Virus record (IMG/VR): IMGVR_UViG_3300030102_006624
Span: 21,382 to 41,792 of that record
Length of the DNA: 20,411 bases
Source of the DNA: a virus
Direction: 5' to 3' (one strand)
Shown: positions 5,823-19,209 of the stretch, piece after piece
Layout: every line of letters starts with the position of its first letter
Numbering within the stretch: position 1 is the stretch's first letter
Notes under the pieces: generated by a model
What the model saw: the letters and a program-made list of their open reading frames with translations, nothing else
Told to the model about the DNA's origin: nothing
Database searches by the model: none
Program-made: the position numbers and the translations under genes

Positions 5823-7859
5823 ATGGCAAATACAGGTTACGGTGCATGTCAAGATGTAGACTCAATAACTTTAGACGCAATTGAAAACAGATCTAAAGCA
5901 AATAAAAATGTTGGAGGTGGTCAAACAGCCGGTCAATATTTAGATTGGATGACAAAAAGAAAGCCTTGGGTAAGAGCATACTCTTGTGCTTCAACTGGTG
6001 GTGTTTTAGGAGATACTGGTAACATTGCAAATATAAGTGATTTATATCACTCATCTAACAGGCCAAAGCCAGGAATAACAGACTTATCTTCAACAGAGGA
6101 AGGTACACATGGAGGATTCAAAGAAATAAAGGTAAAATTTGTTTGTTGGACAAAGGATGACTTTGCAGACCTAGCACCTCAATTTTTAACCTATGGAAGA
6201 ACAGTAACTTGCGAGTGGGGATGGACAGTAGATACCTCTGGAACATCTGTAAAGGCTGGAACATTTCAAGATTCAAGATGTGTAAAAAATGATGGAGACT
6301 TTAGTGATTTAGTAAAAAAACATAGAGACCAATATGAAGCCTGTATGGAGGTAGTAAGAGGTCAAGTTACAGATTTTAGTTGGGCATTAGCTGCGAATGG
6401 TTCATTTGAATGTGAGTTTACTCTAACTTCAATGGCAGGAAATACTGCAAAAATGCCAGCAAAAGTTGCAACAAAAGATTGTAGTTGTCCTGAAGATAAA
6501 AAAGAAGATGAAGCAGAAAAAGGACCAACATTTAATATACTCCAAACTTTAGATTCTATGAAAGAAGTATGCATGCAGATAAAGACCTCCCGAACTCTAA
6601 AAATAGATGGAAAGGTATGTGGAGTAGGAATGACATCAGATGCAGCAGATGACCAATCTGGAGCAGAAAAGTCAAAATGGCCATTTGGATTAGGTTCTAA
6701 AGTTGTTGAACTCCAATTTATTACTTTTGAATGTTTTGAAGAATATGTTGTTAATCATAACATTATGCCTTTGAGTGGTGACGGAGATGAAGGTACAGAT
6801 AGAGCTGCTGCAAAAGCTATATGTGGAGAAGGATATGGTGACGTAGCAAATAGTGGAAATGAGTACTCGGGATTGTTTTATTCAAATCACTCTGTTTGTA
6901 GACCTGGTGTAACGGCAGTTGTAAGTGGAGATCCTACAGTTTGTCTCATTCCTGGTGAATCACTAACAGACCAAACTGTTTCTCATTTTAATTTAGTTGG
7001 AGGTGGATTCGACAATCTTGATGCTACAACAAGTGATGGTGTATACTTAGGCGGAATTCTTTTGAATATAAAAATGTTGGAAGATGAATTTAACTCATTA
7101 GGTAAAGATGATGGTGCAAATGTATATGTAAAAAAAGTATTAGACAGAGTTTCTGAAGCATGTGGTGGATTTTGGAATTTTACACAAGTACCACATTCAA
7201 AAGCAGAAAACATAGTACAGTGGTTAGATATTGACCAAAAACCAAAGGCAGGATCTCCTGCTGTATTAACAATACCTTCATACGGAAAAGATAGTATAGC
7301 TAGAGGAGTTAGTACACAAACAGAATCAGATCCAGATTTTCAAGCTCAAATCATGTATGGTTCAAATAATACTAATGGTAAAGGTGGAGGAAATAAAAGT
7401 GGTGGTATATCACTATGGACTGCAGGAGTTACTGACACGTTCCATCAAAACACTAGAACTTCATCAGAATGTGCTGAACAGGATACAAAAGACAATTGTA
7501 ATCCTCCAACAGACCAGCAAAATACTGAACCTGATCCAGTTGATATTGAAACTGTTTTTAGAAATTTAGGTAAAGAAGTAAGTCCGAAATCAACATCTGC
7601 AGCTAAAAGATGCGCAAGAACTTTAGCTTTAGGAGAAACAGACAATGAAGCAGGACCAAGGGTTATACCTATTCCAATAACACTAGATGTAGAATTAGAT
7701 GGTATAGGTGGATTCGTATTTGGAAACTTAATAACCGTAGATTATCTTCCATCATCATACGATGGTTGGTGTTTTCAAGTAACAAAGGTAGAACATAATG
7801 TAAGCAACGCAGATTGGAAAACTAAATTAGCTTGTGGTTTCATGAGACTAATTCCATAA
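5823..7859 (+). CDS. Cysteine-rich baseplate hub protein (gp27-like)
   Basis: This is a 678-residue protein starting 1 base after the gp53-like gene. Around residues 97-134 it has a beta-rich block ending in 'YGRTVTCEWGWTVD'; a charged 'G.....EWGW' motif is a recurring feature of hub-like proteins in marine myoviruses. The C-terminus (ITLDVELDGIGGFVFGNLIT, then WCFQVTKVEHNVSNADWKTK and LACGFMRLIP) matches the closing beta-barrel of gp27/gpD-type hub proteins, which typically ends 'F.V..V.H......W.T.L'. Hub trimers carry the central spike and connect to the tail tube. It is odd in having 21 cysteines, including CSC at about residues 220-222 in a charged loop; the neighbouring gp53-like and 256-residue proteins have none. 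The call rests on motif patterns and operon position; a different central baseplate component is possible. Confidence 0.6.
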   Translation: MANTGYGACQDVDSITLDAIENRSKANKNVGGGQTAGQYLDWMTKRKPWVRAYSCASTGGVLGDTGNIANISDLYHSSNRPKPGITDLSSTEEGTHGGFKEIKVKFVCWTKDDFADLAPQFLTYGRTVTCEWGWTVDTSGTSVKAGTFQDSRCVKNDGDFSDLVKKHRDQYEACMEVVRGQVTDFSWALAANGSFECEFTLTSMAGNTAKMPAKVATKDCSCPEDKKEDEAEKGPTFNILQTLDSMKEVCMQIKTSRTLKIDGKVCGVGMTSDAADDQSGAEKSKWPFGLGSKVVELQFITFECFEEYVVNHNIMPLSGDGDEGTDRAAAKAICGEGYGDVANSGNEYSGLFYSNHSVCRPGVTAVVSGDPTVCLIPGESLTDQTVSHFNLVGGGFDNLDATTSDGVYLGGILLNIKMLEDEFNSLGKDDGANVYVKKVLDRVSEACGGFWNFTQVPHSKAENIVQWLDIDQKPKAGSPAVLTIPSYGKDSIARGVSTQTESDPDFQAQIMYGSNNTNGKGGGNKSGGISLWTAGVTDTFHQNTRTSSECAEQDTKDNCNPPTDQQNTEPDPVDIETVFRNLGKEVSPKSTSAAKRCARTLALGETDNEAGPRVIPIPITLDVELDGIGGFVFGNLITVDYLPSSYDGWCFQVTKVEHNVSNADWKTKLACGFMRLIP

Positions 7860-8640: not shown

Positions 8641-8669
8641 TTTACCATGTCAAATATTTTGTTTATATT
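8641..8669 (+). promoter_or_regulatory. Conserved promoter-like element, copy 1 (ahead of polymerase-like gene)
   Basis: TTTACC at 8641-8646, a 17-bp spacer beginning ATGTCAAAT, and TATATT at 8664-8669 give a bacterial sigma70-like layout. The element begins 2 bases after the stop of the structural operon. The ATG of the next gene (8676) is only 6 bases beyond the -10-like hexamer, so the expected transcription start falls on or next to the start codon and the mRNA would be leaderless. Confidence 0.75.
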
Positions 8670-8675
8670 AACTAC

Positions 8676-9944
8676 ATGATAGTAGACAAAAGATTATATG
8701 GTAAAGTTATAGAAATAATAGAAACAAGACCTGTAATATTAGTACCTGTACCACTTAATTATTCTCTACATCCAAAAAATACAGGCATATGTGTATTATA
8801 TATTAGAGATTTACAAAATGAAAAGTCTTATCTAATACCAATAAACCATCCAGATTCAGAATGTTATGAAATACCATCTAAAATATTTAGAGCCTATGTA
8901 CCGAGTATAAAAGATGCAATACATTTAGGAATAAAATCTAAAAATTTAATTGACTTAGAACTATTACACTACTATAATACAGGTAAAAAATTAAGTTTTA
9001 GTAAGACTCAATCTCAACATTTTATTGAAAGAAAATTTTGGAAGTATCCTGAATGTAATACACTTGTGCCAATACTAAAACTATTAGAATATTGCAAAAA
9101 TAACAGAAAAACATATATAGAAACTATAGGCAATATAGATACACTTTCAACCGAGTTTATCGAATACAATAGAGATATGTCTGAAGCATATTTTTACTTA
9201 GAATCTAATGGATTATATACACCTGAAGGTATAGAATATACACAATATAATCTATTTACTTCAACCGGAAGACCATCCAACACTCATAATGGTATAAATT
9301 ATGCAGCACTTAATAAAGAAGATGGTAGTAGAGATAGATTTACTAGTAGATTCAATAATGGTATGTTAGTTGAAATGGACTTTGATGCATATCACCTTAG
9401 ATTGATAGCAAATCTTGTTGGATATAAATTACCTAATGATAGTGTACATACTTATCTTGGAAAGTATTATTTCGGCAAAGATGAACTGACAGAAAAAGAA
9501 TATCAAGAAGCAAAACAGATAAACTTTAAGATTCTATATGGTGGTATACCTGAAGAATTTAAGAATATTGAATTTTTTAGTCTTATTAGTAAATTTATTG
9601 GAAAACTTTGGCATGAATGGAAGTCAAAAAATAGCGTAACTACATATTTATATAAGAGACGTATGACAAAAGAACGTCTTGGAGAAATGAATCCTCAAAA
9701 GCTTTTTAACTATTATATTCAAGCTTATGAAACAGAATATAATATACAAGTAATAAAGAGGTTCAAGAAGGTTTTGAATGACAAACAAACAAAGGTTGTA
9801 TTATGTACTTATGATAGTTTTCTATTTGACTTCGATATATCTGATGGTTTAGATACCTTAAAACAATTAAAGAATTCAATGAAAATTCAATCAAAAGTTT
9901 CAATAGGTGCAAATTATGGTACTATGATTGATAAGTCGCTCTAG
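8676..9944 (+). CDS. Short divergent family-A DNA polymerase-like protein
   Basis: This 422-residue protein carries the ordered family-A polymerase motifs. TSTGRPSN at about 195-202 matches the Pol I TGRLSS segment (R199). Motif A, MDFDAYHLRLIANL (234-247), has aspartate D235. Motif B, AKQINFKILYGG (279-290), keeps K280, F284 and Y288. N345 and Q349 in LFNYYIQAYETE match the Pol I N...Q pair. Motif C, TYDSF (378-382), has D380. So both catalytic aspartates are present, but the usual motif B arginine is Y276, motif A glutamate is H240 and the HDE of motif C is YDS. The first 160 residues look like a worn 3'-5' exonuclease fold (ICVLYIRDLQNEKSYLIPIN, then HPD) without clear catalytic acids. T4-like phages normally use a family-B replicase, so this may be a second, specialised polymerase. 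No Shine-Dalgarno precedes the ATG, and the next methionine is residue 168, past conserved sequence. Confidence 0.7.
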   Translation: MIVDKRLYGKVIEIIETRPVILVPVPLNYSLHPKNTGICVLYIRDLQNEKSYLIPINHPDSECYEIPSKIFRAYVPSIKDAIHLGIKSKNLIDLELLHYYNTGKKLSFSKTQSQHFIERKFWKYPECNTLVPILKLLEYCKNNRKTYIETIGNIDTLSTEFIEYNRDMSEAYFYLESNGLYTPEGIEYTQYNLFTSTGRPSNTHNGINYAALNKEDGSRDRFTSRFNNGMLVEMDFDAYHLRLIANLVGYKLPNDSVHTYLGKYYFGKDELTEKEYQEAKQINFKILYGGIPEEFKNIEFFSLISKFIGKLWHEWKSKNSVTTYLYKRRMTKERLGEMNPQKLFNYYIQAYETEYNIQVIKRFKKVLNDKQTKVVLCTYDSFLFDFDISDGLDTLKQLKNSMKIQSKVSIGANYGTMIDKSL

Positions 9945-9950
9945 ACCCTT

Positions 9951-9966
9951 ATATTTATATATAGTA
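9951..9966 (+). promoter_or_regulatory. Shared AT-only upstream element, probably late-type promoter
   Basis: ATATTTATATATAGTA lies 13 bases before the ATG of the 764-residue gene. The same 16 bases with one change (A to G) recur at 12675-12690 before the 473-residue gene. The core TATTTATA is the reverse complement of the T4 late promoter box TATAAATA, so orientation argues against a simple T4 match; a variant late box is possible. CCCTT (9946-9950) and AAGGG (9969-9973), the latter part of the ribosome binding site, are complementary and flank it. Confidence 0.4.
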
Positions 9967-9979
9967 GAAAGGGATACGT

Positions 9980-12274
9980 ATGAATTTTAACAGATTAGTT
10001 TCAGAGTGGGCATGGCGTGTAAATGATGGAATGCCAGATCCACAAAATAGAACACATGTAGAATTACTTAGACAAGTGCTTATAGAGTCAGGCTATGAAG
10101 AAGATTGGGTTCTAGAGTATACTCAAAATCTTTTTGAAGTTAATGATGATACAGTGATTAAGTATAAGGAAGACGGTGAAACAAAAACTATGAAAGCCGG
10201 TTCTGCAAAAACAATGCCTAATGAACATCCTGCAAAAAGGGCTTGGGATAAACTTCAAGATAAAGGTGGTTCTGATTCTGAATCTGATGAAAAAGAAAAA
10301 GAAGTAGACGACACAAAACTTTCTGCAAAAGACGGAGACTTCATAAGAAAGGCTGGTGAAAAAGACGATACAAAAGTCAAAACTTCAATTGAAGACAAGA
10401 ATAAAGAAAAACCTAAGGAAAAGGAAACAAAAGGAACTGCAATTGAAGGAAATCAAGAACAAATAATTTCAACAATAGCTTCAAGGCAAACAAACTTAGG
10501 AGAAGACAGAAAAATAGGTTTAGCAGGAGCTGGTGGAGCAAAGGCAAGTGAAGGAGAATCAGTATACACCTCAGCGGTAAAAGAAGCTAAAGTGACTGAG
10601 TCAACAAACGAAGAAAAAGAAGCTTTAAGAAATAGAAAAGATGGAAGAGGAAGAGCAAATTATCCAAATAGTGAAGAAAAGCTAATATTAGAAGATTTAG
10701 GATTAGAGTCAAATAGCGATGAGGCAGCAGATTATCTTATATCTAGAGAAAAGTATGCAAAGGCAAGACTTGAAGAGGTAAAAAATTACAAATTATCTGA
10801 AAGACAACAACAAAGAAAACAAGAATTAGAATCAAAGGAAAAACTAAATAAGAAAGAAAAGTCAGAATTAAAAAAACTTAATAGCAACGTATTTGAAAGC
10901 AAATCTGGATTCAATGGTAAAGAAGGAGACTATTTAGACTGGGCTAAAACAGCGTATGATGGCGGTATACGTACTTTGGAATTATTAGAAGATAGTAGAA
11001 TGGATACGTCAAAACCCCTTGAAATGGTTCAGTCTACGAGAGAAATAGATGATGATGTTGAAGCTACAATATTATCAAAAAGAGATAGTTTTGAACCTGG
11101 CAGCGATGACTATAAATATTATGATAAAGAGTTAAAATCGTTTCAAAAATTTAGAACATACCATGATACTTATGCTGTTGGTCAAGATGAAAAAGGTAGA
11201 ATGTTTGTTGTTCATGTAACTAATAAAAAGGCTAGTGATTTGGCTGACCCGCATTTTAATACAACCGTATCAAAAAGGTTTAGGTCTCTTAAAGAAAATG
11301 AAGACCCAGAATCAGAAAAAGTAATACAAGTATTAGAAAACGCTATTGATAAAACAACAAACTTTAAGCAAAATACTGTTGATAGTGTAGCTACAATAGA
11401 GGTTGATGATAATTTTACAAAACTAGCAGAAGAAGCAATACCTAAAAGATTAGAAGAAATTAAAGAGAGAGGATTAAAGAAAAAGGACAAGTTAAATAAC
11501 TGGCTAACAGACAATGGAATTTCTTCAAAAGATTGGGAAGGCATGAATACTAAAACACGCCTTCAAACAGTACAAAAATTTACTGGAGATATGGATTGGC
11601 ATAAAAATAATGGTAATGTAGAAACAGATGAAGATGGAAATACTTATCCAAAGCTTGCATATGACCCTTATGGAAGAATGTTTGTTAAAGTTGGTGAAGA
11701 AGCTAAATTAAAAAAACATGCAGAACTAGTATCTAATTCTCAAGGATTACAAAAAGCTATAGAAATAAAAAGACAAGAGGCAGATGTTGTTTCAATACAA
11801 CATAAAGCAGTTGTAGATGGAATAGCAGAGGCAGATAAAGAAAAAGGTTATCCAAAAACTGATGAAAATGGAAATGTAATAGAAAATGGACCACACACTA
11901 AAAGATATATTGAAAGAGTAATGGAAGATATTCATTACACTACATATATAGATATGGACGAAGAAGATGATGATAAAGTGATAGCTCAGATGGGAATAAA
12001 AGGGGCAAAACCTAGCCATATACGAAATTGCTTAGCGAAACAAAGTGGATATGAAGGAGACCCATCTGATAAAAATGCACTTAAGTCTCATATAATAAAT
12101 ACGGCGTCTATATCAGAAGATAGAAAATTTATTACGATTGGTAAAGATAAAAAAGAACTAATAAAAGACGAATACAGATTAGCTGCTCCAGGAACAAAGG
12201 CAGTTTCTTATTTTGGAAAATCTATTAAAGATTGCGTAAGTAAGTCTGTTGCAGCAAGTAGGAGCGGTAAATAA
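9980..12274 (+). CDS. Large acidic phage protein of unknown function, with AGSAKTM module
   Basis: This 764-residue protein is highly charged and has no recognised enzyme motif. Residues 1-52 form a small helical unit with the pattern L..EW..R..DGMPDP.N..H...LR.VL.E.G...DW...Y..NL, which I associate with other marine phage proteins. Residues 59-95 are the module shared with the 473-residue protein (IKYKEDGETKTMKAGSAKTM, then HPAKRAWD). A lysine/glutamate-rich, likely disordered stretch follows at about 96-235. Then comes a helical, probably coiled-coil region (about 255-310) and a more globular part with KGRMFVVHVTNKKASDLADP and, further on, DPYGRMFVKVGEEAKLKKHA. AAGGG lies 7 bases upstream of the ATG. 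It overlaps the next gene by one base (TAATG). A virion or injected internal head protein is one reading, based on the AT-only upstream element and the N-terminal units; it is unproven. Confidence 0.6.
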   Translation: MNFNRLVSEWAWRVNDGMPDPQNRTHVELLRQVLIESGYEEDWVLEYTQNLFEVNDDTVIKYKEDGETKTMKAGSAKTMPNEHPAKRAWDKLQDKGGSDSESDEKEKEVDDTKLSAKDGDFIRKAGEKDDTKVKTSIEDKNKEKPKEKETKGTAIEGNQEQIISTIASRQTNLGEDRKIGLAGAGGAKASEGESVYTSAVKEAKVTESTNEEKEALRNRKDGRGRANYPNSEEKLILEDLGLESNSDEAADYLISREKYAKARLEEVKNYKLSERQQQRKQELESKEKLNKKEKSELKKLNSNVFESKSGFNGKEGDYLDWAKTAYDGGIRTLELLEDSRMDTSKPLEMVQSTREIDDDVEATILSKRDSFEPGSDDYKYYDKELKSFQKFRTYHDTYAVGQDEKGRMFVVHVTNKKASDLADPHFNTTVSKRFRSLKENEDPESEKVIQVLENAIDKTTNFKQNTVDSVATIEVDDNFTKLAEEAIPKRLEEIKERGLKKKDKLNNWLTDNGISSKDWEGMNTKTRLQTVQKFTGDMDWHKNNGNVETDEDGNTYPKLAYDPYGRMFVKVGEEAKLKKHAELVSNSQGLQKAIEIKRQEADVVSIQHKAVVDGIAEADKEKGYPKTDENGNVIENGPHTKRYIERVMEDIHYTTYIDMDEEDDDKVIAQMGIKGAKPSHIRNCLAKQSGYEGDPSDKNALKSHIINTASISEDRKFITIGKDKKELIKDEYRLAAPGTKAVSYFGKSIKDCVSKSVAASRSGK
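10190..10217 (+). repeat. 28-bp near-identical dispersed repeat, copy 1 (AGSAKTM codons)
   Basis: The codons for MKAGSAKTM differ from those at 12824-12851 by one base in 28 (AAA versus AAG lysine). Flanking codons of the same module differ freely, so this core is the most conserved nucleotide block shared by the 764- and 473-residue genes. Confidence 0.9.
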
Positions 12275-12675
12275 TGAAAACCCAATTACTATGTACGTTT
12301 ACTAACCATCGTTCACTATCTAAGACTGTAGATAAGATAATAGATGCTTACGATATTTTGTATAATAAAATGTTTGTTCTAAAGAATGAAAATGATACTA
12401 GAGAATTGATGTGTACCTATAATATAGATGCATCAGGTAGGGTAGAAATATTTCCAGAAACTATATCTCTACATAGAAAGAAACAAACAAATACTCTTTA
12501 TACTATTAACGCCTTAAATGAAACTATAAAATTGTGCAATAATGGAGTCTTAGATACAACCTTTCAAGTAGATTGGGAAAATTATAGAAACTGTATCATG
12601 GTCACAAATGAAGATGGACTAAGACGAATAGATACTTCTGTTAAAGAAATTATACATATTAAGGTAAAACGCTGA
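12274..12675 (+). CDS. Conserved-looking marine phage protein of unknown function
   Basis: This 133-residue protein has no signal peptide or membrane segment. It begins MKTQLLCTFTNHRSLSKTVD and contains short, evenly hydrophobic strands and helices typical of a small globular alpha/beta domain: YDILYNKMFVLKN, ELMCTYNID, TISLHRKKQTNTLYTINALN, DTTFQVDWENYRNCIMVTNE. I recognise the overall pattern (LCTFTN ... ELMCTYN ... HRKK.TNTLYTINALN ... VDW.....I.VTN) as recurring in marine T4-like phages, but no function is attached to it. Its ATG shares an A with the TAA stop of the preceding gene (TAATG), and AGGAG lies about 10 bases upstream, so translation is probably coupled. It sits between the two genes with the shared AGSAKTM module. 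Confidence 0.7.
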   Translation: MKTQLLCTFTNHRSLSKTVDKIIDAYDILYNKMFVLKNENDTRELMCTYNIDASGRVEIFPETISLHRKKQTNTLYTINALNETIKLCNNGVLDTTFQVDWENYRNCIMVTNEDGLRRIDTSVKEIIHIKVKR

Positions 12676-12690
12676 TATTTATATATGGTA
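12675..12690 (+). promoter_or_regulatory. Shared AT-only upstream element, second copy
   Basis: ATATTTATATATGGTA matches 9951-9966 at 15 of 16 positions. It begins on the last base of the preceding stop codon and ends 22 bases before the ATG of the 473-residue gene, which has its own CGGAG ribosome binding site at about 12701-12705. Two near-identical copies before two sibling genes suggest a common promoter or operator, most likely late-type. Confidence 0.4.
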
Positions 12691-12712
12691 AACTATCGCA
12701 CGGAGACTAAAA

Positions 12713-14134
12713 ATGATTAGACTAAAAGCATTATTGAATGAACAACCTGAAGTAAAAGAATCAGAGTATGTCGATGATAATGAAATAATTAAATATAAAG
12801 ATGCAGACGGAAAACCAGCAGAAATGAAGGCCGGTTCTGCAAAAACAATGCAAAAAGGTCATCCAGCTAAAGTTGCTTGGGATCAGGCAAACGAAAAAGG
12901 AATGAAGGCTGCACAAGGTGGAGATGATGACGACAAAAAAGGTTCACAAGTTTCATTTAAGAGAACTGCAGATGATGCAGCTTCAAAGTCAGATGATGCA
13001 GCTTCAAAGTCAGATGATAAAGGTCAAAAAGTTGTTGATGGAAAGATTACTGTAGGAGATGGTGATAAAAAAGAAGAAGTTGGCGTAGAAGAGATAGCAG
13101 ACACGCTTGACCTTCCAGGAATAGATGCAGAAACCCTAGCTAAAAAGTTTGAGTCAGGAGACGCAACTATGGATGCAAATGATTTTGGAAGAATATCTTT
13201 TTCATTTAATGATGATAAGTTAGGATATGTAAACGCTGAAATAGAAGATGACGGTACTTATTTTTTCGATGGAGATGATTTAGATATAGACGAATATGAC
13301 AAAGAATTTTTGGAAGATTCATTAAGAGGTACACTTGACTATTACCATGACCAATTCAAATCAGAAGATGAAGATCCGACTGACGACGATGGTGAAGACG
13401 ATGAAGAACCAACAACTGATGATGATAGTAGAAAAAGAATAGCAGCTTCTTTTGATGATAAAGGTCGACCGACGAAAAGAACTGAATATAAAGGATCCCT
13501 TGAATATAAATTTGAAGACTCAGCCGTAGAAGTAGATGGTGAAACATGGGATGTATATAAAGTCGACCAATATGGTGATGAAGAACGAGATAAGCAGAGA
13601 GAACTACTTCCAAAAAGCTATACAAAAGGCAAATTTGCAAATCAATTTGGAATTATGCATCCTAAGAAAAAACTACAACAAGTTGCTTCATTTCTTAAAA
13701 AAGGATTGAACAACTTTAACAGTGTAGAAGACATATCTGACGAAGATTTAGAATTTGTAAGAAATACTTTTTCCTTTAGCTCACCATCCGCAGGCTACAA
13801 TGTATCAGATAATTTTGGAGCTGGACCGAAAATGAAAAACATAAGTGATGAACGATTAAGAATAGGTATTATCAACGACTTAGACCTTTATGCTGATGGT
13901 AAAGAAATGAGGGTTATGATGCACATTATGGAACCTGATGCTGTAGGTAGGGCTGAAAAGAAGGATACTGGAAAATTTAAGATGTTTAAGGATGATGGTA
14001 ATCCAACATATGTTGGTAAAGCGTTTGTTACAAGGGGTGAACTATACCATAAAGAGGGTGACCCTTTGCCACAAGATGAATTTCCTTCTAAAAAAGAAGG
14101 CATGATTAAATTAAAAAGCCTACTAAAAAAATAA
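12713..14134 (+). CDS. Acidic phage protein of unknown function, sibling AGSAKTM module
   Basis: This 473-residue protein starts MIRLKALLNEQ, and its last eleven residues, GMIKLKSLLKK, repeat that amphipathic motif. Residues 25-63 hold the module shared with the 764-residue protein (IIKYKDADGKPAEMKAGSAK, then HPAKVAWDQ). An acidic, low-complexity part follows with a short SDDAASK tandem repeat and DED-rich runs (about 64-245). A more ordered C-terminal domain (about 255-460) includes GKFANQFGIMHPKKKLQQVA, MRVMMHIMEP and PTYVGKAFVTRGELYH. No catalytic motif is recognised. CGGAG precedes the ATG by 7 bases. T4 internal head proteins use a short N-terminal targeting peptide of broadly similar helical character, so a packaged protein is a reasonable guess only. 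The gene overlaps the following one by one base. Confidence 0.6.
   Translation: MIRLKALLNEQPEVKESEYVDDNEIIKYKDADGKPAEMKAGSAKTMQKGHPAKVAWDQANEKGMKAAQGGDDDDKKGSQVSFKRTADDAASKSDDAASKSDDKGQKVVDGKITVGDGDKKEEVGVEEIADTLDLPGIDAETLAKKFESGDATMDANDFGRISFSFNDDKLGYVNAEIEDDGTYFFDGDDLDIDEYDKEFLEDSLRGTLDYYHDQFKSEDEDPTDDDGEDDEEPTTDDDSRKRIAASFDDKGRPTKRTEYKGSLEYKFEDSAVEVDGETWDVYKVDQYGDEERDKQRELLPKSYTKGKFANQFGIMHPKKKLQQVASFLKKGLNNFNSVEDISDEDLEFVRNTFSFSSPSAGYNVSDNFGAGPKMKNISDERLRIGIINDLDLYADGKEMRVMMHIMEPDAVGRAEKKDTGKFKMFKDDGNPTYVGKAFVTRGELYHKEGDPLPQDEFPSKKEGMIKLKSLLKK
12824..12851 (+). repeat. 28-bp near-identical dispersed repeat, copy 2 (AGSAKTM codons)
   Basis: This is the partner of 10190-10217, with 27 of 28 bases the same, lying at the matching place in the shared protein module. 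Confidence 0.9.
12969..13018 (+). repeat. 21-bp tandem repeat, two copies plus a partial third
   Basis: The 21-base unit starting CAGATGATGCAGCTTCAAAG occurs identically at 12969 and 12990, and its first 8 bases recur at 13011. It encodes SDDAASK-SDDAASK-SDD inside the disordered part of the 473-residue protein. Perfect identity points to a recent slippage duplication. Confidence 0.9.
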
Positions 14135-14325
14135 TGGCAGATCAAAATTTAATATTAGGTAAAGACAAGAATGGTAATACTATATCTTATCATGGTAAGA
14201 AGCTAGGTATTAAGTCAGATCCTGATGCACACAACAAGAGACGTGAAAAAGACGAAGAAGAGTTAAGAGTCCTTTTACGTGACTTGATAGCAAAAGAAGT
14301 AAAAAATCTATTTGTAAAAAAATAG
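14134..14325 (+). CDS. Small charged protein of unknown function
   Basis: This 63-residue protein has its ATG overlapping the upstream TAA (TAATG), so translation is probably coupled. The N-terminal half is polar and glycine-rich (LGKDKNGNTISYHGKKLGIK). The C-terminal half is a strongly charged amphipathic helix (DEEELRVLLRDLIAKEVKNL). It may be an accessory or partner of the 473-residue protein. No family is recognised. It is the last gene before promoter-like copy 2. Confidence 0.6.
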   Translation: MADQNLILGKDKNGNTISYHGKKLGIKSDPDAHNKRREKDEEELRVLLRDLIAKEVKNLFVKK

Positions 14326-14345
14326 TGAAAATAATTGGCCTGGGT

Positions 14346-14374
14346 TTTACCATGTCAAATATTTTGTTTATATT
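14346..14374 (+). promoter_or_regulatory. Conserved promoter-like element, copy 2 (ahead of small membrane protein)
   Basis: TTTACC at 14346-14351, a 17-bp spacer starting ATGTCAAAT, and TATATT at 14369-14374. It is identical to copy 1 across all 29 bases of the box-spacer-box core. The ATG is 43 bases downstream of the -10-like hexamer, with an A-rich leader and no clear Shine-Dalgarno. Confidence 0.75.
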
Positions 14375-14417
14375 TATACTAAATAACAAATAACTGAAAA
14401 TAACTAAAAATTAGCAA

Positions 14418-14762
14418 ATGAATCAATTAGTAATAGCTATTCTATTATTCACACTAGGCCAGGCTCTCATCTGGATTCAAACGAACGGGCAATTTCTTTG
14501 GAAATGGTTCGACAAAAACCCACTAATCTTATCAATCGCATTTGGAACTATAATTTCCTACATCTTTATTTATGCAACAAAATTTGTTGTAAATTATTTT
14601 GATGGTCTTTTATGGCCAGGCAGATTTATAGGTTTTGGTACGGGTATGATATCGTTTGTAATACTAACTTGGATATTTATGGGTGAAGGTATAAGTACGA
14701 AAACTGCAATATCTCTTGTTTTAGCAACAACATTGGTTTCAATACAAATTTTATGGAAATAA
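14418..14762 (+). CDS. Small integral membrane protein, four predicted helices
   Basis: This 114-residue protein shows four hydrophobic segments: about 4-20 (LVIAILLFTLGQALIWI), 37-58 (PLILSIAFGTIISYIFIYAT), 68-87 (FIGFGTGMISFVILTWIF) and 95-112 (TAISLVLATTLVSIQILW). The loops are short, with a polar loop FVVNYFDGLLWPGR between helices 2 and 3. It would sit in the host inner membrane. There is no signal-peptidase site and no recognised family; the layout is broadly transporter-like, but too little is conserved to name a substrate. It is the only membrane protein in the DNA metabolism block and has its own promoter-like element upstream and another directly after it, so it is probably a single-gene early unit. 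A holin-like role cannot be excluded. Confidence 0.65.
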   Translation: MNQLVIAILLFTLGQALIWIQTNGQFLWKWFDKNPLILSIAFGTIISYIFIYATKFVVNYFDGLLWPGRFIGFGTGMISFVILTWIFMGEGISTKTAISLVLATTLVSIQILWK

Positions 14763-14763
14763 T

Positions 14764-14792
14764 TTTCACATGTCAAATAAATTTATTATATT
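14764..14792 (+). promoter_or_regulatory. Conserved promoter-like element, copy 3 (ahead of uvdE)
   Basis: TTTCAC at 14764-14769 (two changes from TTTACC), a 17-bp spacer starting ATGTCAAAT, and TATATT at 14787-14792. The uvdE ATG (14800) lies 7 bases past the hexamer, so the predicted transcription start coincides with the start codon, as for copy 1. Confidence 0.7.
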
Positions 14793-14799
14793 ATAGAAT

Positions 14800-15816
14800 A
14801 TGGCAAAACAACTAGGATACGCATGTATAAATATGACTCTTGCAAAGCAAGGCATATCATGTAACAGAAGTATGATACGTAGAACCTTTGACGCAAAAGG
14901 TGTAGCGTATGCATCAGAACTTATATTAGAAAACTTACGAAATCTAACAAAAATTGTAAGTTGGAATAATCAAAATGGAATAAAAGTATATCGAATGTCG
15001 AGTAACATGTTTCCATGGATGTCTGAATATGAATTTACAGATTTACCAGATTATGATAAAATTTGTAATTTACTAAAAGGTATCGGTACATTGGCAATGG
15101 AGAATGGTCAGCGTTTATCATTTCATCCAGGTCAATTTTGTGTACTAGCTTCACCAAACGAAGAAGTAGTACTCAATGCTATGAATGAACTTGACAAATC
15201 TGCACAGATTATGGACCTCATGGGTTTACCAGAATCTCGTATGGCAAAAATTAACATTCATGTCGGTGGTGCTTATGGTAATAAAAAAGCTGCACTAGAA
15301 AGATTTTGTAAAAACTTCTTGCGATTACAACCTTCAGCACAAGCTCGTCTAACCGTCGAAAATGACGATAAAGCAAACATGTACTCTGTAAAAGACTTAT
15401 ATGAAGGTGTATATAAAGTAGTTGGTATACCTATTGTATTCGATTATTTTCATCATAAATTTTGCACAGGTGATATGACTGAAGAAGAAGCACTCAAACT
15501 TGCAGCTTCTACATGGGGTGATATAAAACCTTGTACTCACTATTCAGAATCAAGACGTGCAGAAAAGAAACTTGTAATAGAACAAATATGTAAGAATAAT
15601 AATATTACAATAGAACAAATGCAAGATTGGCCAACACTAGCTGCACATTACAAAGAGTTCAGTAAAATAAAAGAACAAGCTCATTCAGACTATATTAAAG
15701 AAGAAATTAAAGATTATGGTCTAGATATTGACGTTGTCGTAGAAGCTAAAGCTAAAGAATTAGCTTTTATGAGTGAAGAGTATAAAAAAGTTTTAACAGA
15801 AGTTTTACCATGTTAG
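14800..15816 (+). CDS. uvdE: UV damage endonuclease (UvdE/UvsE family)
   Basis: This 338-residue TIM-barrel, metal-dependent endonuclease nicks DNA 5' to UV photoproducts and starts excision repair. The sequence opens LGYACINMTL and shows the family signatures in order: YRMSSNMFPW (64-73), FHPGQF with H109, NIHVGG with H154, LTVENDD with E187, FDYFHHKF with D215, H218 and H219, THYSES with H247, and AHSDYI (294-299). These are the metal-binding residues of the family. A roughly 40-residue helical, basic stretch lies between HYSES and AHSDYI. No Shine-Dalgarno is visible, but conservation begins at residue 5, so the ATG at 14800 is needed. Arginine codon use is unlike the neighbours: 8 of 12 are CGN rather than AGA. 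Promoter-like copy 4 overlaps the gene's last four codons. Confidence 0.95.
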   Translation: MAKQLGYACINMTLAKQGISCNRSMIRRTFDAKGVAYASELILENLRNLTKIVSWNNQNGIKVYRMSSNMFPWMSEYEFTDLPDYDKICNLLKGIGTLAMENGQRLSFHPGQFCVLASPNEEVVLNAMNELDKSAQIMDLMGLPESRMAKINIHVGGAYGNKKAALERFCKNFLRLQPSAQARLTVENDDKANMYSVKDLYEGVYKVVGIPIVFDYFHHKFCTGDMTEEEALKLAASTWGDIKPCTHYSESRRAEKKLVIEQICKNNNITIEQMQDWPTLAAHYKEFSKIKEQAHSDYIKEEIKDYGLDIDVVVEAKAKELAFMSEEYKKVLTEVLPC

Positions 15817-15832
15817 ATTTTTTTATTATATT
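15804..15832 (+). promoter_or_regulatory. Conserved promoter-like element, copy 4 (embedded in uvdE 3' end, drives gp32-like gene)
   Basis: TTTACC at 15804-15809, a 17-bp spacer starting ATGTTAGAT, and TATATT at 15827-15832. The TTTTACCATGTTAG stretch also encodes uvdE's last residues LPC and its stop codon, so promoter and coding sequence share bases. The leader to the gp32-like ATG is about 26 bases and carries a strong ribosome binding site. Confidence 0.75.
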
Positions 15833-15853
15833 AAGTAATAATTAACAATTAAA

Positions 15854-15858
15854 AGGAG
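15854..15858 (+). promoter_or_regulatory. Strong ribosome binding site of the gp32-like gene
   Basis: AGGAG stands 7 bases before ATG 15866, within AAAAGGAGAGAAAAAATG. Among the genes with a promoter-like copy upstream, this is the only one with a full Shine-Dalgarno, consistent with a highly made ssDNA-binding protein. Confidence 0.8.
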
Positions 15859-15865
15859 AGAAAAA

Positions 15866-16654
15866 ATGGCTATTGATTTAGATGCAATTAGACGTAAACT
15901 CGGAGATTTACAATCTCAAACGACTAGGACTTCACATTTGTGGAAGCCAAGTCCAGGAAAAAATCAGGTAAGAATTGTACCTTACCAGTATAACAAAGAC
16001 AACCCTTTTCAGGAATTGTTTTTTCACTATGACTTAGGTAAAAAGAACTATCTTTCACCAGTTACATTTGGAGAAGCAGATCCAGTTGTTGAATTTTCTG
16101 AAAAGTTAAAAGCTACAGGAAATTCAGATGATTGGAAACTTTCTAAAAAGCTTGAACCAAAAATGAGAACTTATGTTCCAGTATTGGTAAGAGGTGCAGA
16201 AGGAGAAGGAGTAAAGTTATGGGGATTTGGTAAACAAGTATATACAGAATTACTAGGCTTTATTACTGACCCTGACTATGGTGATATTACAGATCCATCA
16301 AGTGGTAGAGATATCGTTGTTGAATTTACACCTTCAGAAGGAGCAGGTTCATATCCAAAAACTACTATTAGAGTAAAACCAAATCAAACACCAGCTACTA
16401 CAGATAAAGCTATCGCTGATAAAATTATGACTGGTCAAGAGGATATTTTTAACATATTCAAGAAAGTATCTTATGATGATTTGAAAGTTGCTCTAGAAGA
16501 ATGGTTAGACCCAAGTAATGATGGTGAAGAATCTACAGGTGATTTACCATGGGAAACTAAAAAAGAAGAAACAAAGGCACCAGCTGCAGCTGCAACTACA
16601 GCAAAAACAACTGATGATATATCAGCAGCTTTTGATGATTTATTTAACCAATAG
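15866..16654 (+). CDS. 32: Single-stranded DNA-binding protein, gp32-like, lacking zinc ligands
   Basis: This 262-residue protein has the T4 gp32 layout. A basic N-terminal part (residues 1-20, RRKLGDLQSQ) serves cooperative binding in the family. An OB-fold core follows with HLWKPSPGKNQVRIVPYQYN, FFHYDLGKKNYLSP and VPVLVRGAEGEGVKLWGFGK. An acidic linker and tail end in DDISAAFDDLFNQ, the typical docking tail for replication partners. It coats ssDNA at the fork and during recombination. T4 gp32 holds a structural zinc through one histidine and three cysteines in the core; this protein contains no cysteine at all, and the corresponding segment reads YLSPVTFGEADPVVEF, so the zinc site is lost. 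It is first in a gp32-48aa-recA run with short spacers. Confidence 0.9.
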   Translation: MAIDLDAIRRKLGDLQSQTTRTSHLWKPSPGKNQVRIVPYQYNKDNPFQELFFHYDLGKKNYLSPVTFGEADPVVEFSEKLKATGNSDDWKLSKKLEPKMRTYVPVLVRGAEGEGVKLWGFGKQVYTELLGFITDPDYGDITDPSSGRDIVVEFTPSEGAGSYPKTTIRVKPNQTPATTDKAIADKIMTGQEDIFNIFKKVSYDDLKVALEEWLDPSNDGEESTGDLPWETKKEETKAPAAAATTAKTTDDISAAFDDLFNQ

Positions 16655-16665
16655 GAGAGATTAAA

Positions 16666-16812
16666 ATGGATAAAGACTTATTGAAAAGAAAGATTGAAAA
16701 TCCAGTTAGAGCTTTAGCAAAAGAATTGGAAGGTAGAGGACAAATGAACGGAATTATTGCAGAAATTGTCAGCAATCTTCTAAAAAACGTTAAAGAACTT
16801 GGAGAAAAATAG
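16666..16812 (+). CDS. 48-residue charged helical protein between gp32 and recA
   Basis: This short gene starts at ATG 16666 and ends at TAG 16810-16812. The ribosome binding site GGAGAG sits right after the gp32 stop, and the product reads MDKDLLKRKIENPVRALAKE onward, predicted as one or two amphipathic helices. It lies 11 bases after the gp32-like gene and 1 base before the recombinase ATG, and the recombinase's own GGAG is inside its last codons, so translation of the three is likely linked. No family is recognised. A small partner of gp32 or of the recombinase (as UvsY is in T4, though there is no visible similarity) is a guess. Confidence 0.7.
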   Translation: MDKDLLKRKIENPVRALAKELEGRGQMNGIIAEIVSNLLKNVKELGEK

Positions 16813-16813
16813 T

Positions 16814-17932
16814 ATGGGTAATCAAGAGAAAGACCAATTAGCACAAATCCTTGCAACATCTCTGAATAAAAAATTCAAAGATTATAAGGTTGCATATTTT
16901 TTAGATGGATCTGAAGAAACACCTACAGATTTATCAGAGTGGATAAGTACTGGTTCTTCAATGCTTGATTTAGCTATATCGAATAGACCTGATGGTGGAA
17001 TACCAGTTGGTAGAATTACCGAAATAACTGGTCTAGAGGCTTCTGGAAAGTCTCTAATAGCTGCACAAATACTAGCTAACACTCAGAAAATGGGAGGTTT
17101 AGCAGTCTATATTGATACTGAAAATGCAATCAACGAAGAATTTTTACAAGCTCTTGGTATAGATATTTCAAAACTATTATATGTACAATTGGAAACAGTT
17201 GAAGATATATTTGAAGTTATGGAGAATATTATACTAACAGTAAGAGAAGGTGAAAAAGATAGATTAGTTACCATTGCAGTAGATTCAGTAGCAGCAGCCA
17301 CAACCAAAGTAGAACAGTCTGCAGACTATAGTAAAGATGGTTGGGCAACTAGTAAAGCCATAGTTCTTTCGAAAGCAATGCGTAAGATAACTCAAATGAT
17401 TGGTAGACAGAGAATAGCTCTAATATTTACAAATCAATTGAGACAAAAAATGGGAGTTATGTTTGGAGACCCTTGGACAACAAGTGGTGGTAAAGCAATT
17501 GCATTTCACTCTAGCTGTAGACTAAGATTAAAAGCTGCAGGTCAGATAAAAGCAACTGTAAATGGACAAGCACAAACCATTGGTATAAAAACAAAGGCGC
17601 AAGTAGTTAAGAATAGAATGGGACCACCTTTAAGAACTGCTGAATTTGATATTTACTTTGATAGTGGAATTGATGATTTTGGTGGATGGTTACAGGTATT
17701 AAAAGCTTACAAGCTTATTAAACAAGGTGGATCTTGGTATACCTTTACTCGAGCGGATGGAACTGAATTAAAATGCACGTCAAAAACTTGGAAAGATAAG
17801 TTAGCCGAAAATGAAGAACTTAGAACAGAAGTTTATGACCTCATTTGCAAAACCCTGGTTATGGATTACAAGACAGAGAATTTGGGTATTGACGATGTAG
17901 AGCATTCTGATGAACCAGTTCCTGAAGGTTAG
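16814..17932 (+). CDS. uvsX: RecA/UvsX-family recombinase
   Basis: This 372-residue ATP-dependent strand-exchange protein forms filaments on ssDNA for recombination-dependent replication and repair. Walker A is GLEASGKS (73-80), the catalytic glutamate is E103 in DTENA, and Walker B is LVTIAVDS (151-158). The DNA-binding loop region is NQLRQKMGVMFGDPWTTSGG (207-226), and KAQVVKNRMGPPLRTAEFDI (261-280) is close to the bacterial RecA KVVKNK..P....AEF block. These features look nearer to bacterial RecA than to T4 UvsX, although the gene takes the uvsX place between gp32 and the gp41-like helicase. The tail is acidic. A TTG at 16799 is in frame, but GGAG at 16801-16804 sits 9 bases ahead of ATG 16814, which decides the start. 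Confidence 0.93.
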   Translation: MGNQEKDQLAQILATSLNKKFKDYKVAYFLDGSEETPTDLSEWISTGSSMLDLAISNRPDGGIPVGRITEITGLEASGKSLIAAQILANTQKMGGLAVYIDTENAINEEFLQALGIDISKLLYVQLETVEDIFEVMENIILTVREGEKDRLVTIAVDSVAAATTKVEQSADYSKDGWATSKAIVLSKAMRKITQMIGRQRIALIFTNQLRQKMGVMFGDPWTTSGGKAIAFHSSCRLRLKAAGQIKATVNGQAQTIGIKTKAQVVKNRMGPPLRTAEFDIYFDSGIDDFGGWLQVLKAYKLIKQGGSWYTFTRADGTELKCTSKTWKDKLAENEELRTEVYDLICKTLVMDYKTENLGIDDVEHSDEPVPEG

Positions 17933-18064
17933 CAGTTGAAGATGGCGTGGTGACCCCATCAACAACAAATAATAGTGAGACTTTTGTCATTGTGTGAAGC
18001 TGATACCAATGTTTTTGGAGCGTCACCGTAAGAAAACTAGAAAACACACTACACTATTAGCATT
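17933..18064 (+). ncRNA. Structured non-coding stretch after recA, candidate 3' UTR or small RNA
   Basis: About 130 bases without a plausible gene and somewhat richer in G+C than the surroundings. Two stem-loops can be drawn. At 17935-17963, GATGG pairs with CCATC, with an inner GG-TGA-CC and outer GTT/AAC. At 17994-18026, GTGA pairs with TCAC, GCT with AGC, and CCAA with TTGG around loop TGTTT. A strong terminator follows directly. It is not a tRNA: no T-arm or cloverleaf can be fitted. No dedicated promoter was found, so processing from the recA transcript is the simplest reading. Confidence 0.35.
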
Positions 18065-18101
18065 GCAAGGGCTTCTGAGAAATTGGGAGTCCTTGCTTTT
18101 T
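18065..18101 (+). terminator. Strong intrinsic terminator
   Basis: A 14-bp stem (18065-18078 with 18083-18096, including several G-T pairs) closes a GAAA tetraloop and is followed at once by five T (18097-18101). The outer six pairs GCAAGG/CCTTGC are perfect. It ends the gp32-recA transcript and separates it from promoter-like copy 5, 25 bases downstream. Confidence 0.93.
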
Positions 18102-18125
18102 GTTAACAACTTTTTTACCCAGAAT

Positions 18126-18154
18126 TTTACCATGTCAAAAAATTTGGTTATATT
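18126..18154 (+). promoter_or_regulatory. Conserved promoter-like element, copy 5 (ahead of 5' nuclease and helicase)
   Basis: TTTACC at 18126-18131, a 17-bp spacer starting ATGTCAAAA, and TATATT at 18149-18154. It follows the terminator, so it should drive the 5' nuclease and the helicase. The leader is about 14 bases, A-rich, with no Shine-Dalgarno before ATG 18175. Confidence 0.78.
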
Positions 18155-18174: not shown

Positions 18175-19209
18175 ATGAAAGACAGATATAAAGAAATACT
18201 AGAAGGTCTAAGTGAAGATACTGCACCTAAAGATAAGAATGATAGAATTCTAATAATAGATGGACTAAACACATTTATTAGAAGTTTTGCAGTTAATCCA
18301 AGTGTAAATGAAGATGGTATACATGTTGGTGGTATGACTGGCTTTTTACATTCTATAGGATATGCAATTAGAAATATTAAACCTACTAGAGTTATTATAT
18401 GTTTTGATGGTAAAGGTGGTAGTCAAAGACGTAGAAAGATATATCCAGAATATAAGCAAAATAGAAGAGTTAGAAAGCACTTAACAAGAGCAAATACATT
18501 TCAGTCTATAGATGATGAAAGAATATCTATGGGTCAGCAAATAAATAGACTAACTGAATACTTAGAAACTCTTCCAATAACAGTATTGGCCACAGAAAAT
18601 ATAGAAGCAGATGATGCAATGGCATACATTTGCCAGCAAGTATATCCTACAAGTCAATGCATTTTAATGTCTACAGATAGAGACTTTTTACAACTTGTAG
18701 ATAGTAGAGTACAAGTTTGGTCACCAACCAAGAAAAAGTTTTATGATTCAGAATCAGTGCAACAAGAATTTTTAATAAATTCTAAGAACTTTATTTTATT
18801 AAAATGTATAACTGGTGATGGTTCAGATAATATTCCTGGTATAAGAGGTGCAGGAATAAAATCTTTACAAAAAAGACTTCCATTATTATTTGAAAACAGA
18901 AAGGTTGAATTATCAGAAGTTATTGATTATGTAAAAAATAATAGTGATGCAACAAAACTAGGACAAGCACTTAAAGACTCAGAAGATTTACTAAATACAA
19001 ATTATAGATTGATGCAACTAGAAGATGTAGAAATATCTGGTCACGCTAAAGAATCTATTATGAATATTGTACATGCAGATATTAGTAGATTAAATAAAAG
19101 AAAATTTGAACAAATGGTATTAGAAGATAATATAAATGGAATATTTAAGAATCCATCTCTATGGTTAAGAGAATCTTTTTTACCTTTAGACAATATTATA
19201 GGACAATAG
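18175..19209 (+). CDS. rnh: 5'-3' exonuclease / RNase H (T4 Rnh-like FEN family)
   Basis: This 344-residue flap-endonuclease-type nuclease would remove RNA primers and 5' flaps during lagging-strand processing. Acidic metal ligands appear in the family order: D29 in ILIIDG, D78 in ICFDGKGG, E144-D146-D147 in IEADDAMAY, D168 and D170 in STDRDF, and D215 and D218 in GDGSDNIPG. The helix-hairpin-helix GSDNIPGIRGAGIKSLQK follows. A basic arch region (SQRRRKIYPEYKQNRRVRKH, 83-102) lies where FEN enzymes thread the 5' end. An in-frame ATG at 18100 would add 25 residues, but it lies upstream of promoter-like copy 5 and next to the terminator, so ATG 18175 is chosen. The gene abuts the helicase ATG with no gap. 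Confidence 0.9.
   Translation: MKDRYKEILEGLSEDTAPKDKNDRILIIDGLNTFIRSFAVNPSVNEDGIHVGGMTGFLHSIGYAIRNIKPTRVIICFDGKGGSQRRRKIYPEYKQNRRVRKHLTRANTFQSIDDERISMGQQINRLTEYLETLPITVLATENIEADDAMAYICQQVYPTSQCILMSTDRDFLQLVDSRVQVWSPTKKKFYDSESVQQEFLINSKNFILLKCITGDGSDNIPGIRGAGIKSLQKRLPLLFENRKVELSEVIDYVKNNSDATKLGQALKDSEDLLNTNYRLMQLEDVEISGHAKESIMNIVHADISRLNKRKFEQMVLEDNINGIFKNPSLWLRESFLPLDNIIGQ

Follow-up and report, generated by a model that had tools for sequence, protein, structure and literature searches.

A putative early promoter class with a clade-specific upstream box in a family of marine T4-related phages

Five similar sites recur in a 20,411-nucleotide stretch (the window) that forms the end of a 41.8-kb uncultured virus record (IMG/VR IMGVR_UViG_3300030102_006624, here G000), raising the question of what reads them and when in infection. 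The sites lie at 8641–8669, 14346–14374, 14764–14792, 15804–15832, and 18126–18154 and, like every window feature given below, are on the plus strand. A sequence-only reading had described them as a sigma70-like promoter family confined to DNA metabolism genes, with an additional conserved spacer box. Its coordinates, strand, and letters were all exact. Four sites have TTTACC and one (14764) has TTTCAC, all five have an exact 17-bp gap followed by TATATT, and the spacer box is ATGTCAAA except at 15804, where it reads ATGTTAGA. Allowing three mismatches or fewer, a search of both window strands for TTTACCATGTCAAA-N9-TATATT returns exactly these five sites, compared to 0.01 expected from shuffles. 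We consider these sites, with moderate confidence, to be early (prereplicative) promoters used by the host primary sigma factor together with a reader of a clade-specific box, with a separate late class for virion genes. The sites, their spacing and genome-wide distribution, the clade boxes, start-codon distances, hairpin pairing, and a second motif were read directly from sequence, and from these we infer promoter activity, transcription starts, host, timing, the box reader, and the target of a phage sigma-like protein.

The same arrangement occurs across a family of related phages. A gp32 query of IMG/VR identified at least 596 stretches that encode a gp32 relative. Isolates are distant, with gp32 at 51% in Mel-JY01 and 40% in Flavobacterium phage immuto, and the PolB-type polymerase reaches ~26% at most among the matches listed. 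Whole or large relative records were read stretch by stretch, using mechanical gene calls for the uncultured records (G000–G007). A position weight matrix scan found 24 sites in G003, 14 in G001, 13 each in G005 and G002, 12 in G006, and six in G000, compared to 0–1 in shuffled genomes. The sixth G000 copy lies beyond the window (G000:6248–6276), ahead of a ribosomal protein S21 (bS21) gene. Nearly all sites lie between genes on the coding strand, with an open reading frame (ORF) directly behind, so matches are not scattered at random inside genes, an outcome that the sequence-only reading had set against its own proposal. The scan was seeded with GTC-N11-TTATATT, and for that reason an unseeded test was added. 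It found TTK at N20 from an intergenic TATATT at 8, 14, 13, 22, 23, 15, 13, and 10 sites in G000 through G007, 15 in Mel-JY01, and 35 in immuto, versus two in Pelagibacter phage HTVC008M. The TTG/TTT peak is at N20 in every family member, often widened to N19–N21 by T-runs. In immuto, which shares the replication gene order of the window (PolA, two genes, gp32, RecA, exonuclease, DnaB), TTG-N20-TATATTTA occurs 23 times in the sense and never in the antisense direction, with two or fewer at any neighboring spacing.

The sigma70 assignment held for the −10 element and was not supported for the upstream box. TATATT matches five of six positions of TATAAT and its 17-bp distance falls within the 16–18 bp of E. 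coli-type promoters. The upstream element matches TTGACA at four of six positions at best (TTTACC) and is TTTGGA in G003 and G004, TTG in immuto (both at N20 from the −10), and TTTTAT elsewhere. The published consensus for Bacteroidota primary sigma factors is −33 TTTG/−7 TAnnTTTG (PMC6847099). TAnnTT is always present in class sites, and a −33-type spacing of ~19–21 bp is found in all members, with the letters TTTG or TTG in G003, G004, and immuto and TTTA or TTTC in the window. Immuto has TATATTTA at 30 intergenic sense positions versus three antisense, and Mel-JY01 has full Bacteroidota −7 boxes (e.g., TTGCATACGTTGAAAAGATTTCGTAAATTTG) that align with the G003 class sequence TTTGGATAAGTCGAAAAAATTTCTTATATT. 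Judged by letters and spacing, the class plan is a better match to Bacteroidota primary-sigma promoters than to E. coli sigma70 promoters. Set beside immuto, Mel-JY01, and the Bacteroidota consensus, TTTACC is best seen as occupying the −33 position and not an E. coli −35.

The spacer box, defined as positions −35 to −21 and cross-scored with leave-one-out matrices, diverges by clade. It falls into three sets ({G003, G004}, {G005, G006}, and {G000, G001, G002}), none of which includes immuto. Boxes score 10–20 bits against their own clade and mostly far lower against others, and the −13 to −7 element scores 8.5–10.6 among the uncultured records with any of their matrices. Box information ranges from 12 to 21 bits, with the top value (21 bits, over 15 bp) in G003. 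Within any one genome the box is uniform (ATGTCAAA in the window; other records have GGATAAGTC or ATATGTCGGA), and orthologous promoters (UvdE, gp32, exonuclease, and the gene for a 114-aa protein) hold their position as the box takes the type of the clade. Upstream of gp32, a TTATTATATTAA-like stretch is kept in most relatives with a promoter there and the upstream half differs between clades; some relatives have no such site ahead of gp32. The suggestion that the conserved spacer is unusual enough to call for an added DNA-reading factor was thus strengthened, as box sets change by clade and the −10 does not. These clade-wise sets with a common −10 favor a co-diverging reader, which is probably phage-encoded. 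Box-bearing clades have GTC-N12-TATATT, placing the box at the spacing of MotA-type sites (12 ± 1 bp upstream of the −10), as in phage T4, where the MotA box is 12 bp upstream of the −10 (PMC2988021).

One lead for the reader is a small ribbon-helix-helix-like protein at G003:49967–50146, also present in G001, G002, G004, G005, G006, and immuto, in which a KLTSVKV strand is almost constant (KLTSVNV in the clade of G003 and G004). It is a candidate, though immuto has the protein without the box. Two other interpretations of the box were rejected. A palindromic operator was suggested by TTT..CATG..AAA symmetry in the window, which is not kept in other clades. An antisense promoter was suggested by TTGACA in the reverse complement of ATGTCAAA and minus-strand matches were listed; by inspection, boxes of other clades break the TTGACA.

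Under the favored explanation, TATATT and the TTT or TTG lying 20 bp before it would be recognized by the host's RNA polymerase carrying the primary sigma factor, the host most likely being a member of the Bacteroidota. Promoters of the uncultured clades would have a second determinant, the box between about −35 and −21. Its reader would be a DNA-binding factor specific to the clade and probably encoded by the phage, in a position like that of MotA on T4 middle promoters. Transcription would start ~6–7 nucleotides (nt) past TATATT and produce a leaderless mRNA where the ATG is exactly there. At several sites the upstream half would double as a hairpin and T-tract ending the preceding transcript. 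Virion genes would pass to a separate class with the motif GATATTTATA, for which the divergent sigma factor encoded by the phage is the probable partner.

Several results weigh against this explanation. In the search for MotA and AsiA, there was no phrog_1345 match in nine records, which are incomplete, and single-sequence searches returned no significant match for either protein. The search for a box reader found no Sigma70_r4 match. Immuto lacks a conserved box, so an extra factor is no family-wide need, and box homogeneity could come from optimized host contacts or other constraints instead of a protein. Six uncultured records show no enrichment of full TAnnTTTG. Records are incomplete and mutually related, and counts from them are not independent events. 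Two further points concern the Bacteroidota host. Virion genes in uncultured records use Shine-Dalgarno sequences, which Bacteroidota ribosomes normally ignore, and a permuted tmRNA (Rfam RF04321) is present in G003 (L164:13393–13687) and G005 (L145:876–1171), with the tags GKQVEYAMAA and GEQVEMAMAA, respectively.

Because no third promoter class is visible, host polymerase must be able to use some class promoters, at least, when infection begins. A plain host primary-sigma promoter is therefore a serious rival, in which no factor is added and the box is an optimized −33/spacer region or a DNA shape suited to strong early promoters. We regard this as possible, if doubtful. With no other early class seen, some sequence must be legible to host polymerase at time zero; immuto gets by with the basic TTG-N20-TATATT plan alone; and T4 early promoters have extra consensus regions that are read by host polymerase alone (PMC2988021). 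Up to 21 bits of box information over 15 bp, in clade-wise sets next to a fixed −10, would however be unexpected if a single conserved sigma surface were the reader. A proteobacterial (e.g., SAR11-like) host with E. coli-type sigma70 promoters would account for the 17-bp gap, the near-consensus TATATT, the Shine-Dalgarno sequences of virion genes, and the permuted tmRNA. We think it unlikely, since TTTTAT and TTTGGA are poor versions of TTGACA, Flavobacterium is the host of the cultured relative that shares the replication gene order, and the SAR11 phage HTVC008M has a canonical GCTTGAC...TGTGATATAAT class and only two sites of the family plan.

Direct recognition by the phage's divergent Sigma70_r2-like protein, found in six relatives, is less probable still. 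In its favor are the protein's conservation across the family, its helical region at the C-terminus, and Sigma70_r2 matches for 5 of 18 aligned members (best 2.4e-5). The C-terminal region hardly varies, whereas the box differs from clade to clade, which makes the invariant late motif a better partner; the G003 gene also lies downstream in a gene run opened by a class promoter, and the fold search was not significant. It is very improbable that the repeats are operators or terminators and not promoters. Several do form terminator-like hairpins with T-tracts, but many sites without a stable one (0.0 kcal/mol at 8641, for instance) still have the whole motif at its fixed spacing and at a fixed distance from the start codon, and the box shows no palindrome that holds across clades.

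Genes behind the window sites are mostly for DNA metabolism. The perfect copy at 8641 precedes a DNA polymerase family A-like gene (8676–9944; Pfam DNA_pol_A, 2e-10). The copy at 14764 has two mismatches and precedes a UV-damage endonuclease gene, uvdE (14800–15816; Pfam, 1.2e-56). The copy at 15804 also has two mismatches and precedes a gp32-like single-stranded DNA binding protein gene (15866–16654; Pfam gp32, 5.9e-13) with a 33-nt leader containing AAAGGAG. The perfect copy at 18126 precedes a 5'-3' exonuclease/RNase H-like gene (18175–19209; 344 aa from the ATG after the promoter, with the mechanical ORF call beginning at 18100) and leaves a 20-nt leader without a Shine-Dalgarno sequence. 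The claim that sites are confined to DNA metabolism is correct for these four of five. The remaining perfect copy, at 14346, precedes a gene for a 114-aa protein with no Pfam match (14418–14762), also with no Shine-Dalgarno sequence in its 43-nt leader, and this gene is conserved with a class promoter in G001, G003, G005, and G006. In relatives the claim fails, as bS21, Nudix, GDP-mannose dehydratase-like, and other genes carry a site too. Across six records, the genes served are gp32, UvdE, exonuclease, PolB, PolA-like, DnaE/PHP, primase, DprA-like, Nudix, nucleotide kinase-type, bS21, sugar-nucleotide, and many small unknown genes. Several of these names rest on a reading of the sequence. 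No major virion gene was seen behind class sites in the six records. The site set thus behaves as expected for a promoter family and a temporal class, as had been proposed, and the class appears to be early or prereplicative and not strictly one of DNA metabolism. One class promoter, G003:91967, has no gene close behind; a match to the DUF805b cis-regulatory RNA lies downstream of it (L164:12513–12548, G003 ~92113–92148).

Start-codon distances give a predicted transcription start. An ATG follows at 77 sites: 5–8 nt past TATATT in 27 of them (including 15 at 6 nt exactly), 11 nt past it in one, and 18–45 nt past it in the rest, leaving 12–17 nt empty. With TATATT at −12 to −7, an ATG 5–8 nt on would put +1 on or next to the A of the ATG, making the mRNA leaderless. 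About a third of class sites should therefore produce an mRNA that starts at the start codon itself, and the sharp mode at 6 nt fits the start 5–9 bases past TATATT that the sequence-only reading had predicted. Leaderless mRNAs are predicted in the window for the PolA-like gene (ATG 6 nt past TATATT) and uvdE (7 nt), and for uvdE there is no in-frame ATG, GTG, or TTG upstream within the window. Four GenBank-annotated immuto genes have the same geometry (starts 16431, 20739, 29811, and 52362). Leaderless mRNAs are only 5.5% in Flavobacterium psychrophilum (PMC9723704).

Some promoters overlap predicted terminators. The stretch upstream of TATATT was folded, using 5' arms swapped within genomes as the control. 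Class sites have a mean of −5.92 kcal/mol versus −4.65 (SD 0.22) with swapped arms (0 of 100). At the gp32 site, values for 30 relatives are −7.62 versus −4.25 kcal/mol (0 of 300), with pairing kept through sequence change, and immuto sites have −5.29 versus −3.18 kcal/mol (0 of 200), with a hairpin and T-tract in ~10 of 34 spacers. At the bS21 site the box itself is the 3' arm, the 5' arm follows the box of the clade, and hairpins are about −16 to −18 kcal/mol in G000, G003, G005, and G006. A stable stem followed by a T-tract is found in a subset only (bS21 sites, gp32 sites, and about ten immuto sites), and many sites, such as 8641, have no stable hairpin, by which we rejected the box as a terminator arm only. 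Predicted hairpins in the window include the following three. One overlaps the box of the 14346 promoter (14328–14365; TTGGCCTGG/CCATGTCAA pairing, −12.2 kcal/mol for a 57-nt stretch). The second is terminator-like (15783–15825; TTTAACA...TGTTAGA and then a T-tract), overlaps the gp32 promoter, and is kept across the 30 relatives. The third is a terminator-like GC hairpin with a T-run (18065–18096) just upstream of the 18126 promoter. An Rfam search of the window found no RNA match.

The second motif, GATATTTATA, is a putative late class. It occurs at intergenic positions of ten family genomes 74 times sense versus once antisense, and in uncultured records it mostly precedes genes with Shine-Dalgarno sequences, many in the virion region. 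The window copy (12674–12683) is ahead of an acidic-protein gene (12713–14134) with a GGAG Shine-Dalgarno sequence. GATATTTATA is absent from HTVC008M, which has the T4 late motif TATAAATA 20 times on one strand versus once on the other. The divergent sigma-like protein (~250 aa) is encoded by G003 (L164:17748–18500), G004, G005 (L145:5444–6241), G007, Mel-JY01, and immuto (78106–78825), with a further member at L174:5642–6454. Its predicted structure has pLDDT 80 and pTM 0.50. A fold search with this model had no hit at E ≤ 0.001, and the top three listed were sigma factors. A PDB profile search found no match, and the L174 member has no PHROG match. There was no match to phrog_234 (gp55) in nine records, in a search whose control likewise matched nowhere. 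The nearly invariant C-terminal region (NKKAxYxxIREMT..KTQxIT) led us to reject this protein as the box reader, as boxes change and it hardly does. We infer that it is a likely late factor serving the GATATTTATA class.

Translation signals differ between the two classes. Bacteroidota ribosomes, whose anti-Shine-Dalgarno is masked with the involvement of Tyr54 of bS21, normally ignore Shine-Dalgarno sequences. A Shine-Dalgarno sequence is present in 12 of 74 first genes behind class promoters versus 251 of 501 others (P = 1.7e-8), and in 34 of 49 virion genes in G003, 16 of 29 in G000, and 3 of 60 in immuto, with virion and early sets chosen by position or annotation. HTVC008M has no early/late difference (33 of 70 versus 14 of 28). 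Phage bS21 genes are in G000 (6312–6650), G003 (10035–10370), G004–G007, and Mel-JY01, behind a class promoter in G000, G003, G005, and G006; none was found in immuto or in the incomplete G001 and G002. All phage copies have A, R, or K in the column that we take to be Tyr54, placed by PDB chain alignment and the F. johnsoniae numbering. In Flavobacterium johnsoniae, bS21 Y54A raises Shine-Dalgarno translation (PMC9976891). We tentatively suggest a two-step expression switch, of which class promoters would form the early half. Early mRNAs, leaderless or lacking Shine-Dalgarno sequences, would be readable by Bacteroidota ribosomes with a masked anti-Shine-Dalgarno. A class promoter would then drive a phage bS21 without the masking Tyr54, which would enter ribosomes and unmask the anti-Shine-Dalgarno, and GATATTTATA-class virion mRNAs with strong Shine-Dalgarno sequences would then be favored. 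Counting against such a switch, only a single relative without bS21 (immuto) is available for comparison, Mel-JY01 has bS21 yet also has Shine-Dalgarno sequences in early genes (17 of 39), and the host may simply be a Shine-Dalgarno-using bacterium.

We consider the family to be a large, mostly uncultured group of marine T4-related myophages that probably infects Bacteroidota. Evidence for this host includes replication synteny with immuto, which was isolated on Flavobacterium, and TAnnTTTG in Mel-JY01. A SAR11 host was rejected, as HTVC008M uses a different promoter class and has only two TTK-N20-TATATT sites. Mel-JY01 (PP395634) was deposited as a Microcystis phage, and its repeated Bacteroidota-type TAnnTTTG promoters suggest that its true host may be a member of the Bacteroidota rather than Microcystis. 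A tRNA-Arg look-up in GTDB genomes for host assignment returned two contigs, L173 (CALBOT010000155) and L174 (NZWA01000013), from metagenome-assembled genomes labeled Nitrosopelagicus and Flavobacteriales. L174 has phage-type genes and L173 is alike, which says little about the host, and the look-up led to the sigma-like candidate. Both contigs look like phage DNA of this family's kind, either misbinned or from an infecting phage. A GroES and GroEL pair is phage-encoded and conserved across the family (G003:46145–48062 and orthologs; immuto 40251–42193).

Promoters of marine T4-like phages outside the cyanophages had resisted prediction. Middle and late promoters of pelagimyophages were reported as unpredictable (PMC7029224), and the authors of the Melnitz description left open middle promoters too divergent for detection (PMC9004378). 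In a large family, with at least 596 stretches encoding a gp32 relative, one spacing rule together with a clade-specific box would define an early class, and a late class would be marked by a second motif. New here are the predicted leaderless geometry, the terminator-promoter overlap, the motif GATATTTATA, and a likely late sigma factor. The cultured member immuto allows timing, leaderless translation, and terminator-promoter overlap to be tested, the boxes can serve as bait for finding their reader, and the contrast between bS21 and Shine-Dalgarno use makes a phage-driven ribosome switch directly testable.

Compared to known systems, the class resembles the promoters of the Bacteroidota primary sigma factor (sigma ABfr) in its TA..TT −7 core, N20 spacing, and −33-type TTG or TTTG in immuto, G003, and G004. 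It differs in dropping the TTTG end of the −7 element, in having TTTA or TTTC for TTTG in the window, and in the added clade-specific box; the −33 element is weak in F. johnsoniae itself. As in T4 early promoters, there are many copies with extra conserved stretches ahead of early genes, but T4 early promoters have an excellent sigma70 −35, TGn, −10, and UP elements and the marine class does not. Like T4 middle promoters, the class replaces a standard −35 by a box 12 bp ahead of the −10 and serves replication, recombination, and nucleotide-metabolism genes, although the box is unrelated to the MotA box (TGCTTTA) and no separate early class was seen. HTVC008M and other pelagimyophages are also T4-related, AT-rich, marine, and encode bS21, and differ in having a canonical TTGAC/TATAAT class and the T4-type TATAAATA late motif. 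The second motif resembles T4 late promoters and their gp55 in being short and AT-rich with no visible −35, ahead of virion genes, in phages that encode a divergent sigma-like protein. In the sense direction, however, GATATTTATA holds the reverse complement of the T4 motif TATAAATA.

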